A stretch of DNA of 50,919 bases from a virus, in IMG/VR virus record IMGVR_UViG_3300032271_001647, positions 1-50,919 of that record; one strand, written 5' to 3'. Numbering within the stretch: position 1 is the first letter of the stretch; each line of letters begins with the position of its first letter. Below, one piece after another: positions 29,922 to 47,025 of the stretch. The notes below the pieces were generated by a model that made no database searches, was not told where the DNA came from, and saw nothing but the letters and a program-made list of their open reading frames with translations. A program made the position numbers and the translations under genes.

Positions 29922-31379
29922 ATGTTTTTTGAAAAAGATGAAATTCTAAAATTAGTTAAACAATATCCAAAACACTATAGTATTATTATACGTAAAAATC
30001 CGATATTATTTGCATGGGTTGAAGCTAATCACAAATTAGCGAATAACACTGATTCAATTGGTGCAAAAATTTATAGTGCTGTGTATCAAGAATCTGATGT
30101 ATGTTCGGTAGGAAATGTTAAAAAATACACTAGATGGTCTACAGGCTTTTCAAACTGCGGACCAGCCGCTATATGCAAGTGCACACAACAGCAAATTTCA
30201 GAAAACGTACAAAAAACTAAATCTGCATATAGTCAAGAAGATCATGATCGAATCAATCAAAAACGTAAAGACACTATGAAAAGTATATATGGCGTTGAAA
30301 GTACATTTCAACGTCCAGAAATGCAACCTTTCTTGACCAGGGCAAAGGTTGATATGGATGTGTACAACAAGATAACTGACCGAGAATGGCTAAATGAAGA
30401 GTACATTAATAAGAAGCGCACTTCAGTTGACATTGCAGATGAACTTGGTATTGATTACAGCACAGTAATATTTCACTGTAATAAGTCGGATATTGAAACC
30501 AGAAGTGGCAGTAATTATTCACTAGTGGAAAGAAAGGTCTCCGTATTTTTAGATGAGTTAGGTGTAGAACACAAAACGAATGTAACGCGGATGTTATCTG
30601 GCAAACTTGAGTTAGATATCTATGTACCAACTCATAATTTTGCAATAGAAATTAATGGTCTATATCATCATTCAACTAAACGGGTAGATGCCAAACAGGC
30701 TGTCAATAAACATATTAGCAAAACACTGCTGGCCAATGAAAAAAATATTGAGTTGTTTCATGTAACCGATTGGGAATGGGATAACAAACAAGATATCATA
30801 AAAAGCATGATTAAAACTAAGCTTGGATTTAATCAGAAAATTCATGCTAGAAAATGTACTATCAAACAAGTTAGTACTGCACAGTCTAGAGAATTTTTAG
30901 ATCAATACCATTTGCAAGGTTATATTCCCAGCAAATTTTATCTAGGACTTTACTACAATAATGATTTAATCATGATGATGACTGCTGGTAAACCAAGATT
31001 TAATAAAACCAAATATGATTTAGAAATATACCGTATGTGCTCAAAAAGCGGGATAACAGTTGTAGGTGGTGCATCAAAACTACTTGCATATTTACGTGAT
31101 CAGTACAATGTATCAAGTATTATCACATACTGCGACAGAAGTAAAAGTGTTGGCAATGGATATATGCAAATGGGTTTTAAAAAGATTGGCGCCACAGAAC
31201 CAGGATATTTTTGGACAAATGGAAATCTTGTTGTATCAAGATATCAAACTCAAAAGTCTAGACTACAATCTTGGCTAAAATCCTATGATGCATCAAAGTC
31301 TCAAACAGAAAACATGATCGCTGCTGGTTATGGTAAATTTTGGGATTGCGGTAACTATATTTTTGTATATAATACATAA
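29922..31379 (+). CDS. Free-standing homing endonuclease, VSR-like nuclease domain
   Basis: The protein has 485 residues. The middle holds a helix-turn-helix-like segment (SVDIADELGIDYSTVIFHC, about 168-186). The nuclease core is LELDIYVPTHNFAIEINGLY followed by HHS at about 228-250, the same D...E...GLY-x-HS arrangement as the endonuclease at 11.8 kb. The C-terminal ~180 residues match that protein too (TVVGGASKLLAYL, then YGKFWDCGNYIFVYNT). It lacks the NUMOD3 repeats of the first copy. It lies convergent to the major capsid gene, has its own late promoter and a good ribosome binding site, and looks intact. Confidence 0.8.
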   Translation: MFFEKDEILKLVKQYPKHYSIIIRKNPILFAWVEANHKLANNTDSIGAKIYSAVYQESDVCSVGNVKKYTRWSTGFSNCGPAAICKCTQQQISENVQKTKSAYSQEDHDRINQKRKDTMKSIYGVESTFQRPEMQPFLTRAKVDMDVYNKITDREWLNEEYINKKRTSVDIADELGIDYSTVIFHCNKSDIETRSGSNYSLVERKVSVFLDELGVEHKTNVTRMLSGKLELDIYVPTHNFAIEINGLYHHSTKRVDAKQAVNKHISKTLLANEKNIELFHVTDWEWDNKQDIIKSMIKTKLGFNQKIHARKCTIKQVSTAQSREFLDQYHLQGYIPSKFYLGLYYNNDLIMMMTAGKPRFNKTKYDLEIYRMCSKSGITVVGGASKLLAYLRDQYNVSSIITYCDRSKSVGNGYMQMGFKKIGATEPGYFWTNGNLVVSRYQTQKSRLQSWLKSYDASKSQTENMIAAGYGKFWDCGNYIFVYNT

Positions 31380-44089: not shown

Positions 44090-44926
44090 ATGAGTCAAAA
44101 CCCACTGCAGCGATACTTTAGACAACCCAGCCTGTATCTAACCCTGCCCAGCATGAACCGTTGGTACACTGCAACAGACATTGCTGCTGCTGAAAATGGT
44201 GAAGTTGCTGTATATGGTCTCACTGCCATTGATGACATCATGCTCAACACGCCAGATGCCATGCTAAACGGACAAGCACTGGAAAAGGTCATCAGCAACT
44301 GTGTGCCCAGTATTAAAAATGTCAAGAGCCTGCTGTTGCCAGATCTTGATGCCATATTTGTGGCCATCAAGCTGGCCACAACTGGTCAGGGTTATCCCAT
44401 GGACCGCAACTGTCCCAAGTGTGCACACGACAACACACAGGACCTCAACTGCCAGCATGTGCTGGACAACATGACCTTTGTTGATAACAGTGATTGTTCA
44501 CTGGAACTCAATGAGCTTAAAATATTTGTTCGTCCCTATACATTTGAAATGCGACACATTTTCATGCAGCGTCAATTTGAAGAACAAAATCTAGTGAATC
44601 AATTGTCAACTGAACTTGATGATTTTGCTCGCAGCAAGATCATAGCTGAGAGTGTGGAACGTTTGAGCAGGATCACATACGAACTTGTATCACGCAGCGT
44701 GGAAAAAATACAGCTACCCGATGGCAACATGGTCACAGATCATGATCAAATCAAGGAATGGCTGTTCAACATTACCAGCAGTCAAGCCGAAGCTGTGATC
44801 AATCAAGTCAACACACTAAACCAAGTGGGTGTGCAAAAAAACATACAGTTCACCTGTGCAGCATGTGCACATGAGTGGAACGAACAGGTGGAGTTTGATC
44901 CCATAAGTTTTTTCGGCAAACGCTGA
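44090..44926 (+). CDS. 26: Baseplate hub subunit gp26-like
   Basis: This 278-residue protein begins SQNPLQRYFRQPSLYLTLPS, has IDDIMLNTPDAMLNGQAL and a central LLLPDLDAIFVAIKLATTG, then two cysteine pairs (CPKC at about 104-107; CAAC near 258) that could bind zinc, and ends EQVEFDPISFFGKR. The order (LxLPS, TPD-x-L-x-NG, C-x-x-C, VxFDPxxFF) is that of gp26 homologues in T4-like marine phages. T4 gp26 itself is a small hub/spike subunit. Its stop codon overlaps the next start (TGATG). Confidence 0.75.
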   Translation: MSQNPLQRYFRQPSLYLTLPSMNRWYTATDIAAAENGEVAVYGLTAIDDIMLNTPDAMLNGQALEKVISNCVPSIKNVKSLLLPDLDAIFVAIKLATTGQGYPMDRNCPKCAHDNTQDLNCQHVLDNMTFVDNSDCSLELNELKIFVRPYTFEMRHIFMQRQFEEQNLVNQLSTELDDFARSKIIAESVERLSRITYELVSRSVEKIQLPDGNMVTDHDQIKEWLFNITSSQAEAVINQVNTLNQVGVQKNIQFTCAACAHEWNEQVEFDPISFFGKR

Positions 44927-45141
44927 TGGTGGGCTCTGCTGAAGATATTCAGCAGATATTAAAAGCCATGCAGCAGAATAGAAACACAATTGAAGAAGAA
45001 ATTGCCATGTTGGTGTTTTACATGGAAGGTGGACTGGATTTCAATGACGCATATGCACTGAGCTCACTGCAGCGTCAAAGACTGGCCAAAGTGATCGAAC
45101 AACATTACGAAAAACGAGCTGCATCCAAAAGCATGCTATAA
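44926..45141 (+). CDS. gp51-like baseplate hub assembly protein (candidate)
   Basis: This 71-residue protein is all helix: ILKAMQQNRNTIEEEIAMLV followed by FYMEGGLDFNDAYALSSLQR. Small proteins of this type directly follow gp26 in many T4-like marine phages and are called gp51, the hub assembly catalyst. The T4 protein is much longer (249 aa), so this assignment relies on position and a remembered helix pattern. Translation is coupled to gp26 by a 1-nt stop/start overlap. Confidence 0.5.
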   Translation: MVGSAEDIQQILKAMQQNRNTIEEEIAMLVFYMEGGLDFNDAYALSSLQRQRLAKVIEQHYEKRAASKSML

Positions 45142-45150
45142 CACCAGCTG

Positions 45151-45178
45151 TTGAATAGTCACACTATCTCATTATTAA
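45151..45178 (+). promoter_or_regulatory. Possible sigma70-type promoter before the structured region
   Basis: TTGAAT (45151-45156) and TATTAA (45173-45178) are 16 nt apart. Each matches 4 of 6 consensus bases. A transcript would begin near 45185, just before the first stem of the structured region. Confidence 0.3.
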
Positions 45179-45189
45179 TCACATATCAC

Positions 45190-45880
45190 TGTGTTTAACG
45201 AGTGCTTGTTTCACTGCGCACTTCGTTGTTTTGATGTCAAACTGCACTCGACAAGCTCGTTGGTTTGACATCAAATCTGATTTAATACCAATACCGTTTA
45301 ACACGTTTCTACAACAACTGTGCATTACCAGCATTGAGTGTATGTTGTGTTGTTTTGTTTTGAACAATTAAATCTTTCTCAAATCATGCACTTCTTGATA
45401 GGACAGCCACAATACTCCCTGGGACAGGAAGTACCGTTAAGATGGCTCGTGGAAGATTTTTCACTTCTTGATGAGGCGTAGCTTACTCACAATCATATCC
45501 TACATGTTGTTTTCAACATGAGCTGGCGGAATACCTATTTCCAGCATGTGGACAAAATACTCAAGGACCAAGTCCTTTATTCGGTTATAGGATACGCACG
45601 TGGCACTGCGTATGACCCTAAGCCCCACATGATGCCGATTGCATTAGCATGCATGTGAGTTCCATTAAACATCCGAGACTAGATCAGATGTGGGAATCCT
45701 TTTTGACTTATTTGCGCAGTCTAAGGGCCTAGTCTAAGGACCTTGTTTCGTAATTACGACCTCGCCGTCGTACTTTGAACGGGTAGAAGGGTTACTACCA
45801 TACAATGCTGCTATGTTAATGTTTACAACAATAAGTATTTGCAACTGATTGTGTCAATATAATTTACCAAAAAAAGTAAA
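45190..45880 (+). ncRNA. Large structured non-coding RNA candidate
   Basis: About 690 nt without a plausible gene hold a series of strong stems: 45197-45205/45218-45227 (9 bp, one bulge); 45230-45242/45263-45275 (13 bp perfect); 45503-45509/45514-45520 (7 bp, UUUU loop); 45522-45526/45541-45545; 45563-45568/45572-45577 (6 bp); 45592-45598/45607-45613 (7 bp); 45626-45635/45647-45657 (10 bp, one bulge); 45755-45760/45767-45772 (6 bp); 45782-45786/45795-45799. A GACTAG/CTAGTC pair (45677, 45729) could make a long-range contact. One stem (45450-45463) uses a G-U pair only possible on the plus strand. Size and density recall giant phage RNAs such as GOLLD or ROOL, but I see no diagnostic sequence for either. 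A degraded gene is a less likely alternative. Confidence 0.6.
45389..45472 (+). repeat. Direct repeats inside the structured region
   Basis: CACTTCTTGAT occurs at 45389-45399 and again at 45462-45472. A separate pair AGTCTAAGG occurs at 45718-45726 and 45731-45739, 13 nt apart. Confidence 0.6.
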
Positions 45881-45892
45881 AAACACATGAAA

Positions 45893-45925
45893 AAGCAGAC
45901 AGCTGGGGCGAGCAACTGTCTGCTT
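45893..45925 (-). terminator. Terminator for the leftward gp55-gp47-gp46-nuclease unit
   Basis: Perfect 10-bp stem (AAGCAGACAG and its complement) with a 13-nt loop. On the minus strand TTTTTC follows directly. It would stop leftward transcripts that have read through antisense to acb1. Confidence 0.65.
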
Positions 45926-45935
45926 AGTGAGGGAG

Positions 45936-45960
45936 TCAGCAACACAATGCGCTGTTGACT
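45936..45960 (+). repeat. Stem-loop upstream of acb1
   Basis: GTCAGCA (45936-45942) pairs with TGTTGAC (45954-45960), 7 bp including one G-U pair that only the plus-strand RNA could form. Confidence 0.4.
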
Positions 45961-46030
45961 TAAATATTATTAAACATCTTGCACAGTATTGCAATTAAAA
46001 TCAAACCTTAAATTAGAAAAGATTCTTTGT

Positions 46031-46059
46031 TTGACAACATTTACACAAACTTATACAAT
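46031..46059 (+). promoter_or_regulatory. Near-consensus sigma70 promoter for acb1
   Basis: A perfect TTGACA (46031-46036) and TACAAT (46054-46059) are 17 nt apart. Transcription would start about 7 nt later, at the ATG at 46067. This is the best host-type promoter in the window and implies early expression. Confidence 0.7.
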
Positions 46060-46066
46060 TGAACAC

Positions 46067-46543
46067 ATGAGATTATTCAACATTAGCGCAAGTACTTTGT
46101 ATGTTAGCCGTCCTCTTGTGAATGCCCAGGATCTATACAACTGGGCCAAGCAGCAGGGATTTCCTGATATTTTAGATCCTCAGCACATGCATGTGACCAT
46201 TGCATATAGTAGAAAATCGTTTGATATTTCTGTTATCGATCAACTGGTATCACGGGAGTTGCATGCACATTACGAACATGACAGACATGTGCAGTCACTG
46301 GGCAACAGTGGTGCAGTGGTGTTGATGTTTGGCAGCGATGACTTGCATGCAAGATGGCAGCACATTTGTGATTGCGGCGCCAGTTGGGACTATCAACAAT
46401 ACCAACCACATGTGACCATTACTTATAATTCAGTGCCGGCTGGTTTTGATACATCTGCAGTTGAACCTTTTGCAGACACATTGCTGTTTGGGCCCGAGCA
46501 TTGGGAACCACTTGACGAATCTTGGTCACCTGGTGAAAAATAA
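46067..46543 (+). CDS. acb1: Acb1-like anti-CBASS 2H phosphoesterase
   Basis: From the ATG at 46067 the protein has 158 residues, close to T4 Acb1 (gene 57B, 152 aa). LYNWAKQQGFPDILDPQHMH followed by VTIAYSRK contains the first HxT motif (H42-V-T44), and YQPHVTITYN the second (H115-V-T117), the two catalytic motifs of 2H phosphoesterases. The order and spacing, with LDP just before the first motif and FGPEHWEPL near the end, fit Acb1, which degrades cyclic oligonucleotide signals of CBASS defence. No Shine-Dalgarno precedes the ATG; the frame extends upstream only via a TTG. The 3' end overlaps a convergent gene by 121 nt. Confidence 0.8.
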   Translation: MRLFNISASTLYVSRPLVNAQDLYNWAKQQGFPDILDPQHMHVTIAYSRKSFDISVIDQLVSRELHAHYEHDRHVQSLGNSGAVVLMFGSDDLHARWQHICDCGASWDYQQYQPHVTITYNSVPAGFDTSAVEPFADTLLFGPEHWEPLDESWSPGEK

Positions 46544-47025
46544 TAATCGTCATCACACTTGAGAAAATCATCAAGCTTGTAAATTACAAATTCTCGATAT
46601 TGCAATGTGTTTGCTGCAATGGGTAACTGTAGCTGAACAAAAACAATTTCATCTACATTGTTGTATTTTACTATCAAGGCCATTAGCTTCTTGGCCTGTG
46701 CAGCATCTTGCAGGGCCTGTTTTAACCAACCATCCCACTGTGTGACCTTGTGGCTCATGATGCTTTGAAAGCTGGGAGCACTTTTATAGTGTTTGCACTC
46801 AATGGAAAACTTGAACAGCTTTGGACACACTAGATCGCCAAACACTGCATAGTCCAGATCATGTGTGGTGGTACGACGTTGATTGCTGCCTCCGAAAAAC
46901 GACCCAGAATCTATGTTTCTGCGAAATGCGGTGCTGATTCCGGTCTTGAGTTGAAAACGCTTGCTCAACTGGTTGGCTATTTTGCGTTCAAAGGCGCTGC
47001 CTTTGTTTTTTCCATTTGTTGACAT
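46423..47025 (-). CDS. PD-(D/E)XK nuclease (Holliday-junction-resolvase-like)
   Basis: This 200-residue protein has KGSAFERKIANQLSKRF (helix with Glu at about 8-24), GSFFGG, HDLDYAVFGDLV with D near residue 58-64, and FKFSIECKHYK at about 71-81. The E...D...E-x-K array is the PD-(D/E)XK core of resolvase-like nucleases. It lies just downstream of gp46 in the same direction, so a role in DNA recombination or processing is likely. The last ~40 residues (after residue 160) are Ser/Gly-rich, low complexity, and lie antisense to the 3' end of acb1; they look like a tail gained by reading past an older stop. Confidence 0.7.
   Translation of the reverse strand: MSTNGKNKGSAFERKIANQLSKRFQLKTGISTAFRRNIDSGSFFGGSNQRRTTTHDLDYAVFGDLVCPKLFKFSIECKHYKSAPSFQSIMSHKVTQWDGWLKQALQDAAQAKKLMALIVKYNNVDEIVFVQLQLPIAANTLQYREFVIYKLDDFLKCDDDYYFSPGDQDSSSGSQCSGPNSNVSAKGSTADVSKPAGTEL

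Follow-up and report, generated by a model that had tools for sequence, protein, structure and literature searches.

GOLLD and ROOL form multimeric cages that consist of RNA only. GOLLD is a large structured phage RNA of unknown function that is induced in phage lysis, and ROOL is an RNA of about 0.6 kb with several pseudoknots, encoded by phages and prophages, for which no known protein is needed (PMC12286853). As a case for comparison, we considered a gene-free region in a 50,919-base stretch of viral DNA (the window), the source of which is a T4-like phage; the products recognised in it are a portal and a late sigma factor, proteins like SbcC and SbcD, and a baseplate hub of the gp26 type. 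The RNA predicted from this region resembles GOLLD in being large, structured and phage-borne, but it has no tRNA nearby, stays under the 800+ nt typical of GOLLD and occurs in several copies per genome. With ROOL it shares a size of about 0.6 kb, a pseudoknot structure and its encoding by phages, but it gives no covariance-model match, lies in no tRNA island, is multicopy and has, as seen here, a different host and phage range. A further object of comparison is ncRNA004 of Pseudomonas phage PA5oct, which has the same strand logic, length and element order, and a sister copy at the PA5oct gp26 locus, but the sequence of which is nearly unrecognisable beyond a 17-nt word and the annotation of which is a single one, without family, structure or copies.

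Neither the window nor six homologous loci and seven cultured-phage loci gave an Rfam match at the gathering score; the models of GOLLD, ROOL, group I and group II introns, HEARO and OLE were not matched, and a search up to E 10 with segments of the window and of locus L037 returned chance matches only. With ARAGORN, the window and L021-L040 proved free of tRNA genes. The RNA is not GOLLD, ROOL or an intron, in agreement with a preliminary description of the window, made from its letters, in which no known family was recognised. We found no description of the family in the open-access literature; among the large structured phage RNAs, a known kind, it forms a new family, one likely relative of which had been annotated singly before.

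The gp26-gp51 locus and its homologues

Two conserved neighbours, the genes for the gp26-like baseplate hub (44090-44926, plus strand) and for a gp51-like protein (44926-45141, plus strand; named by position and size only, with no PHROGs match), are followed in the window by 925 nt without a credible gene (45142-46066), which extend to an Acb1-like gene starting at 46067. The preliminary description had singled out 45190-45880 as the sole large gene-free stretch, with perfect stems of up to 13 bp, internal repeats and no reasonable reading frame, and this is borne out: the longest ORF inside it has 62 aa, the other candidate gap (17.5-18.3 kb) contains a 221-aa ORF with a nucleotide-kinase match, a perfect 13-bp stem is present at 45230-45242/45263-45275 (a second 13-bp stem, 92% paired, lies at 45893-45905/45913-45925), and there are repeats of 10-25 nt, part of them probably due to chance. 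The stretch folds better than its dinucleotide shuffles on both strands (z -2.6 on plus and -4.8 on minus; 0 of 20 shuffles as good), and blastn of it against phage records gave no match.

The Acb1-like gene directly beside the RNA (46067-46543, plus strand) encodes an anti-CBASS protein (Pfam PF23474, E 1.5e-36), a relative of which is found at the same place in L018/L023, L026 and L039. About 120 bases of it are overlapped by the 3' part of an opposite-strand gene for a PDDEXK/RusA-like nuclease (46423-47025, minus strand). Elsewhere in the window, a 485-aa homing endonuclease-like protein is encoded at 29922-31379 (plus strand; PHROGs E 4e-100).

Using the gp26-like protein, we reached homologous loci, which have a short motif in common at the same place. 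Scanning IMG/VR with this motif gave 20 contigs and a relaxed scan 13 further real ones, and all 33 (up to 518 kb long) have a gp26 relative upstream, with identity down to 34%; the RNA adjoins gp26/gp51 in each of these 33 contigs recovered by motif, and further copies lie elsewhere. Most of the 51 extra matches of the relaxed scan were coding, with a far strand that did not match, and were taken as chance, as were six matches from the genome contig scan that have a shorter loop and lie within long ORFs. Also set aside were L059 and L092, in which the pair is absent and only a model fragment matched, the R1 matches in Phosso and RaK2 (E about 1), which have no core motif, and, after inspection, G002:69591. 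No RNA was detected at this place in L006-L009, L011 and L013-L016, loci with the same gene order in related phages.

The aligned homologues have in common a core some 400 nt long; it contains conserved boxes as well as helices in which the letters have changed and the pairing has been kept. A conserved protein had been named in the preliminary description as evidence against an RNA; no ORF is common to the aligned homologues of the window's branch. The core design is a hairpin, GCTGG-CGGARYRCCTA-TT-CCAGC, five loop letters of which pair 30-45 nt downstream, directly before GGT. In the window, this pseudoknot (45529..45582, minus strand), found in a 16-sequence alignment and in a free-letter scan, joins GAATA at 45529-45533 with TATTC at 45578-45582. 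All five pairs are formed in 16 of 16 aligned sequences, three of them with changes on both sides. The scan with four loop letters left free returned family members only. Four of these loci have GGGCA as a new loop, each with TGCCC before GGTT; the four are near-identical and are counted as one event.

Copies in cultured jumbo phages

By gp26 and portal, the nearest cultured phages are jumbo T4-like phages, in which the gene order is unchanged and a gap lies at the corresponding position. Of these gaps, that of Serratia phage BF has matches at 139 places in 31 phage records, and the records of this divergent branch are cultured jumbo phages, including Serratia phage BF, CBB, GAP32, 121Q, Munch and XbC2. 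Each of six complete genomes mapped (BF, XbC2, Munch, GAP32, CBB and XaC1) carries five copies, on one strand, and 121Q carries four or five. The 50.9-kb record of the window holds one copy, and second copies within its branch were found in contigs G005 (L165) and G002 (L168), the latter with a matching pseudoknot; the two to five copies per genome of the relatives were not visible from the window alone, from which the preliminary description had been made.

In three copies of the cultured branch (BF_93, Xb_95 and Mu_100), the core reads ACTGG or GCTGG-CGG-GTTGT-CC..-CCAGT/C, with ACAAC before GGT, which is the design of the window; because of this same core design and the shared place, we regard the two branches as homologous. 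The pair is kept in all of ten further IMG/VR contigs of the cultured branch, some of which are the same isolates. The alignment of 14 cultured-branch copies holds 84 pairs, 97.5% formed, of which 49 (187 cells) are changed on both sides, as compared with 32 pairs and 54 cells in the shuffled control, which carries a caveat of relatedness, and at most 16 pairs and 15-25 cells in the slid control, which flatters the result as the structure was derived from this same alignment. Compensatory variants of the stem of the core hairpin in this branch are ACTGG/CCAGT, GGGAG/CTTCC and GAGAG/CTTTC. Covariation among homologues, which the preliminary description had proposed as a check, is thus strong, with compensatory changes in both branches.

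The copies of BF are intergenic, with unrelated genes around them (methyltransferase, spanin, ADP-ribosylglycohydrolase, DksA-like), and do not serve as leaders of a single gene type. In a tree, BF and XbC2 copies from matching positions fall together, in two groups with Munch as well, which indicates that the duplications are old. The copies at 174.7 and 30.5 kb of BF (NC_041917.1) share a variant, GTGTCTTATGTCGCATTTGATTGACTGCACGTA, that is absent from their XbC2 counterparts, and this sharing suggests conversion between copies within the BF genome. In Erwinia phage Kaldavass (L173, 173-816) and in Paride (L105, 6285-7504), short 'hypothetical protein' genes are annotated inside the RNA region; they are probably spurious.

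In Pseudomonas phage PA5oct, the corresponding place is a long gap, where a consensus promoter lies on the same strand, and the gap sequence matches two other places in the genome, giving three copies, all on one strand and unevenly spaced (13, 76 and 246 kb). One of these copies is ncRNA004 (NC_071039.1, 246116-246734, plus strand, 619 nt), given in GenBank as 'putative lncRNA' with the remark 'Annotation based on RNA-Seq data'; its strand is that of the predicted RNA, the record gives transcription of one PA5oct copy, and its start lies about 20 nt past a TTGACA-N17-TAAACT site. PA5oct-type sequence occurs in 11 Pseudomonas phage records. What PA5oct has in common with the family is the place, the element order, a 17-nt word (E 0.02) and a 3' C/G hairpin, and the R1 search of PA5oct gave no match. 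Read by eye, one pair of strands covaries in the PA5oct branch (TGAAG/CTTCA, TGATG/CATCA, TGTTG/CAACA), its equivalence to the core pseudoknot being putative. By these sequence comparisons, the PA5oct RNA is a probable member of the family.

Strand, promoters and parts of the RNA

The preliminary description had placed the RNA on the plus strand, citing stems with G-U pairs that only this strand allows and a weak sigma70-like promoter ahead of the feature. The gp26 direction was also our starting assumption, and was dropped on the mismatch counts and the BF/XbC2 promoters. For the strand test, helices were defined by Watson-Crick pairs alone, and G-U and A-C were handled alike. Read in the gp26 direction, A-C mismatches outnumber G-U in the cultured branch (26 vs 5, p 2e-4), there is a lean in the window's branch (31 vs 19, p 0.12), and both branches together give 57 vs 24 (p 3e-4; the cells are not independent); since A-C becomes G-U on the other strand, this excess favours the minus strand. 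A comparison of the strands by folding energy alone was indecisive (mean z -2.5 vs -3.0), Alifold run on both strands favoured minus in nine of ten separate groups, by small margins, and the window itself folds better on minus.

At the 5' end of each of the ten BF and XbC2 copies lies a TGRAAC/TGGATC-N17-TATAAT promoter that points against the gp26 direction. This is the second promoter type of CBB and GAP32, which has a TGAAACG -35 box (PMC5259590); the BF plus strand has about 45 such sites, of which five fall exactly at RNA copies. In the window, the promoter scan found no sigma70-like site upstream of the feature on the plus strand. On the minus strand, a promoter-like TTGACA-N18-TATTGT (10/12) lies at 45828..45857, at the predicted 5' end; the site is weak alone, the whole scan having given no more sites than chance expects, and its position agrees with that of the promoters of the BF/XbC2 and PA5oct copies. 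In the window's branch, a clear sigma70 promoter at the 5' end is missing from most relatives. A terminator-like hairpin of 13 pairs, followed by a T-run on minus (45893..45925), precedes the RNA on the same strand and would shield it from upstream minus-strand transcription. The large, dense phage RNA of the preliminary description therefore stands as to its kind and probably not as to its strand: to judge from its relatives and the lean in its own branch, minus is the most likely strand of the RNA, which would run from about 45821 to 45390 or 45227.

The structured RNA is predicted at 45227..45821 by homology and structure, its strand being predicted from folding, mismatch counts and promoters, and by analogy with PA5oct ncRNA004; the predicted 5' end is at about 45821, the conserved core at about 45390-45811 and a tentative 3' end at about 45227, on the condition that the RNA includes the 13-bp hairpin. 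All its parts are given here on the minus strand. The closing helix, GCAG/CTGC, read from the alignment, has its 5' arm at 45808..45811 and its partner at 45716-45719, and reads TTGGC/GCCAA, CTGGC/GCCAG, TCAGC/GCTGA and CTAGC/GCTAG in relatives, by alignment reading with no formal count. In an anchored search of five other helices, four were above their shuffles (0 of 60), the exception being Hh (GGTAG/CTACC, 45782..45799), a weak hairpin no better than its shuffled control. Hg, at 45755..45772, is TACGAC/GTCGTA in the window and GATAAC/GTTATC in most relatives (0/60 shuffles as high), and He, at 45624..45694, pairs CCCACAT (45624-45630) with ATGTGGG (45688-45694), with a mean of 7.4 vs 4.7 shuffled, and adjoins a conserved ATCCTTT box. 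Hd (TAGG/CCTA, 45588..45620), found by alignment and the anchored helix search, contains an extra hairpin seen in the window only (ATACGCA/TGCGTAT, 45592-45598/45607-45613), and in Hc (AAGGAC CAA GTCCTT, 45563..45577) the letters differ per clade, with the pairing always kept. The core hairpin Hb (GCTGG..CCAGC, 45522..45545), identified by motif scans, carries the near-invariant loop CGGARYRCCTA. A C/G-rich hairpin from the alignment, hp1 (ACTCCCT..AGGAAGT, 45410..45436), is flanked by two CTTCTTGAT repeats (45389-45399 and 45462-45472), and the perfect 13-bp hairpin (45230..45275) marks the predicted 3' end; by its place, a hairpin of other sequence in the relatives may be its counterpart.

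Possible roles of the RNA

The basis of the RNA family is its conserved place, its helices with compensatory changes, its pseudoknot, its absence from Rfam, its dispersed copies and its 5' promoters. We think it rather probable that the gap encodes a minus-strand ncRNA of about 0.5-0.6 kb, belonging to an undescribed family of large T4-like (jumbo) phages, and that this RNA is an independent trans-acting unit. At the gp26 locus it is not the leader of a downstream gene, because it runs towards the 3' ends of gp51 and gp26, and the copies among unrelated genes are best explained by an independently expressed trans RNA. Such an RNA would be transcribed as its own unit early or mid infection, would fold on itself and would act in trans as a folded molecule, serving as a scaffold or decoy with a protein, or a second copy of the RNA, as its binding partner, and the several copies per genome would raise its dose.

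The main rival, which we consider unlikely, is a replication-origin transcript that, once folded, would prime replication through an R-loop, with the copies as origins of a very long genome. ColE1 RNA II and the T4 origin transcripts are, like the new RNA, promoter-driven, structured or middle-mode RNAs without an ORF. In five genomes of RaK2-like phages, the copies lie on one strand with even spacing (CV 0.14-0.17, P about 0.001 each, on a circle), and XaC1 gives a CV of 0.32 (P 0.02), but these tests are not independent, as the genomes share orthologous positions, and the PA5oct copies are uneven. Each RaK2-like copy also has the second-type promoter of CBB, a type that is mostly found upstream of a region rich in DNA-synthesis genes (PMC5259590); against an origin speak the two copies on opposite strands in contig G002, a GC skew without a switch at the copies, and strong covariation over about 500 nt, which exceeds the needs of priming.

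We regard as improbable a plus-strand RNA, either the 3' tail of a gp26-gp51 transcript or the product of its own promoter: chosen helix extensions in the window's branch (helix 4) do have G-U pairs in plus orientation, but the unbiased mismatch counts favour minus, the other strand is the one that bears the BF/XbC2 promoters and the PA5oct RNA-Seq annotation, and in BF the equivalent RNA would oppose both neighbouring genes at four of five copies. At this locus, the minus-strand RNA is convergent with gp51 and gp26, as would be a cis-acting antisense regulator of these genes, but other copies with the same structure lie among unrelated genes, which makes such a regulator, or the leader of a neighbouring gene, very improbable. 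Least probable of all is the spread of a mobile or selfish element (an intron or an RNA linked to a transposon) to several sites; the several copies and the conversion suggested by the two BF copies would fit it, but there is no Rfam intron or HEARO match, the intergenic copies have no linked enzyme gene in common, and the grouping of copies by position across genera, in several of five groups of the tree, indicates an old and stable arrangement.

For the independent trans-acting RNA that we prefer, a more specific and doubtful possibility is that, in jumbo T4-like phages of many hosts, the RNA from up to five dispersed genes forms a multimeric or ribonucleoprotein particle during infection. 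If true, phage RNA particles would be of three kinds, GOLLD, ROOL and this one, which would also be the first in lytic phages amenable to genetics, e.g. 121Q or PA5oct. The RNA gaps of many jumbo phage genomes, now left blank or filled with doubtful short ORFs, can be corrected in their annotation. Large phage RNAs such as GOLLD and ROOL have remained without a known function partly because most sit in phages that are hard to handle; the well-known lytic phages that carry the family described here have as hosts E. coli, Serratia, Cronobacter, Pectobacterium, Salmonella and probably Pseudomonas, and the presence of the family in such phages, with several copies in each, opens the function of a large phage RNA to direct tests.
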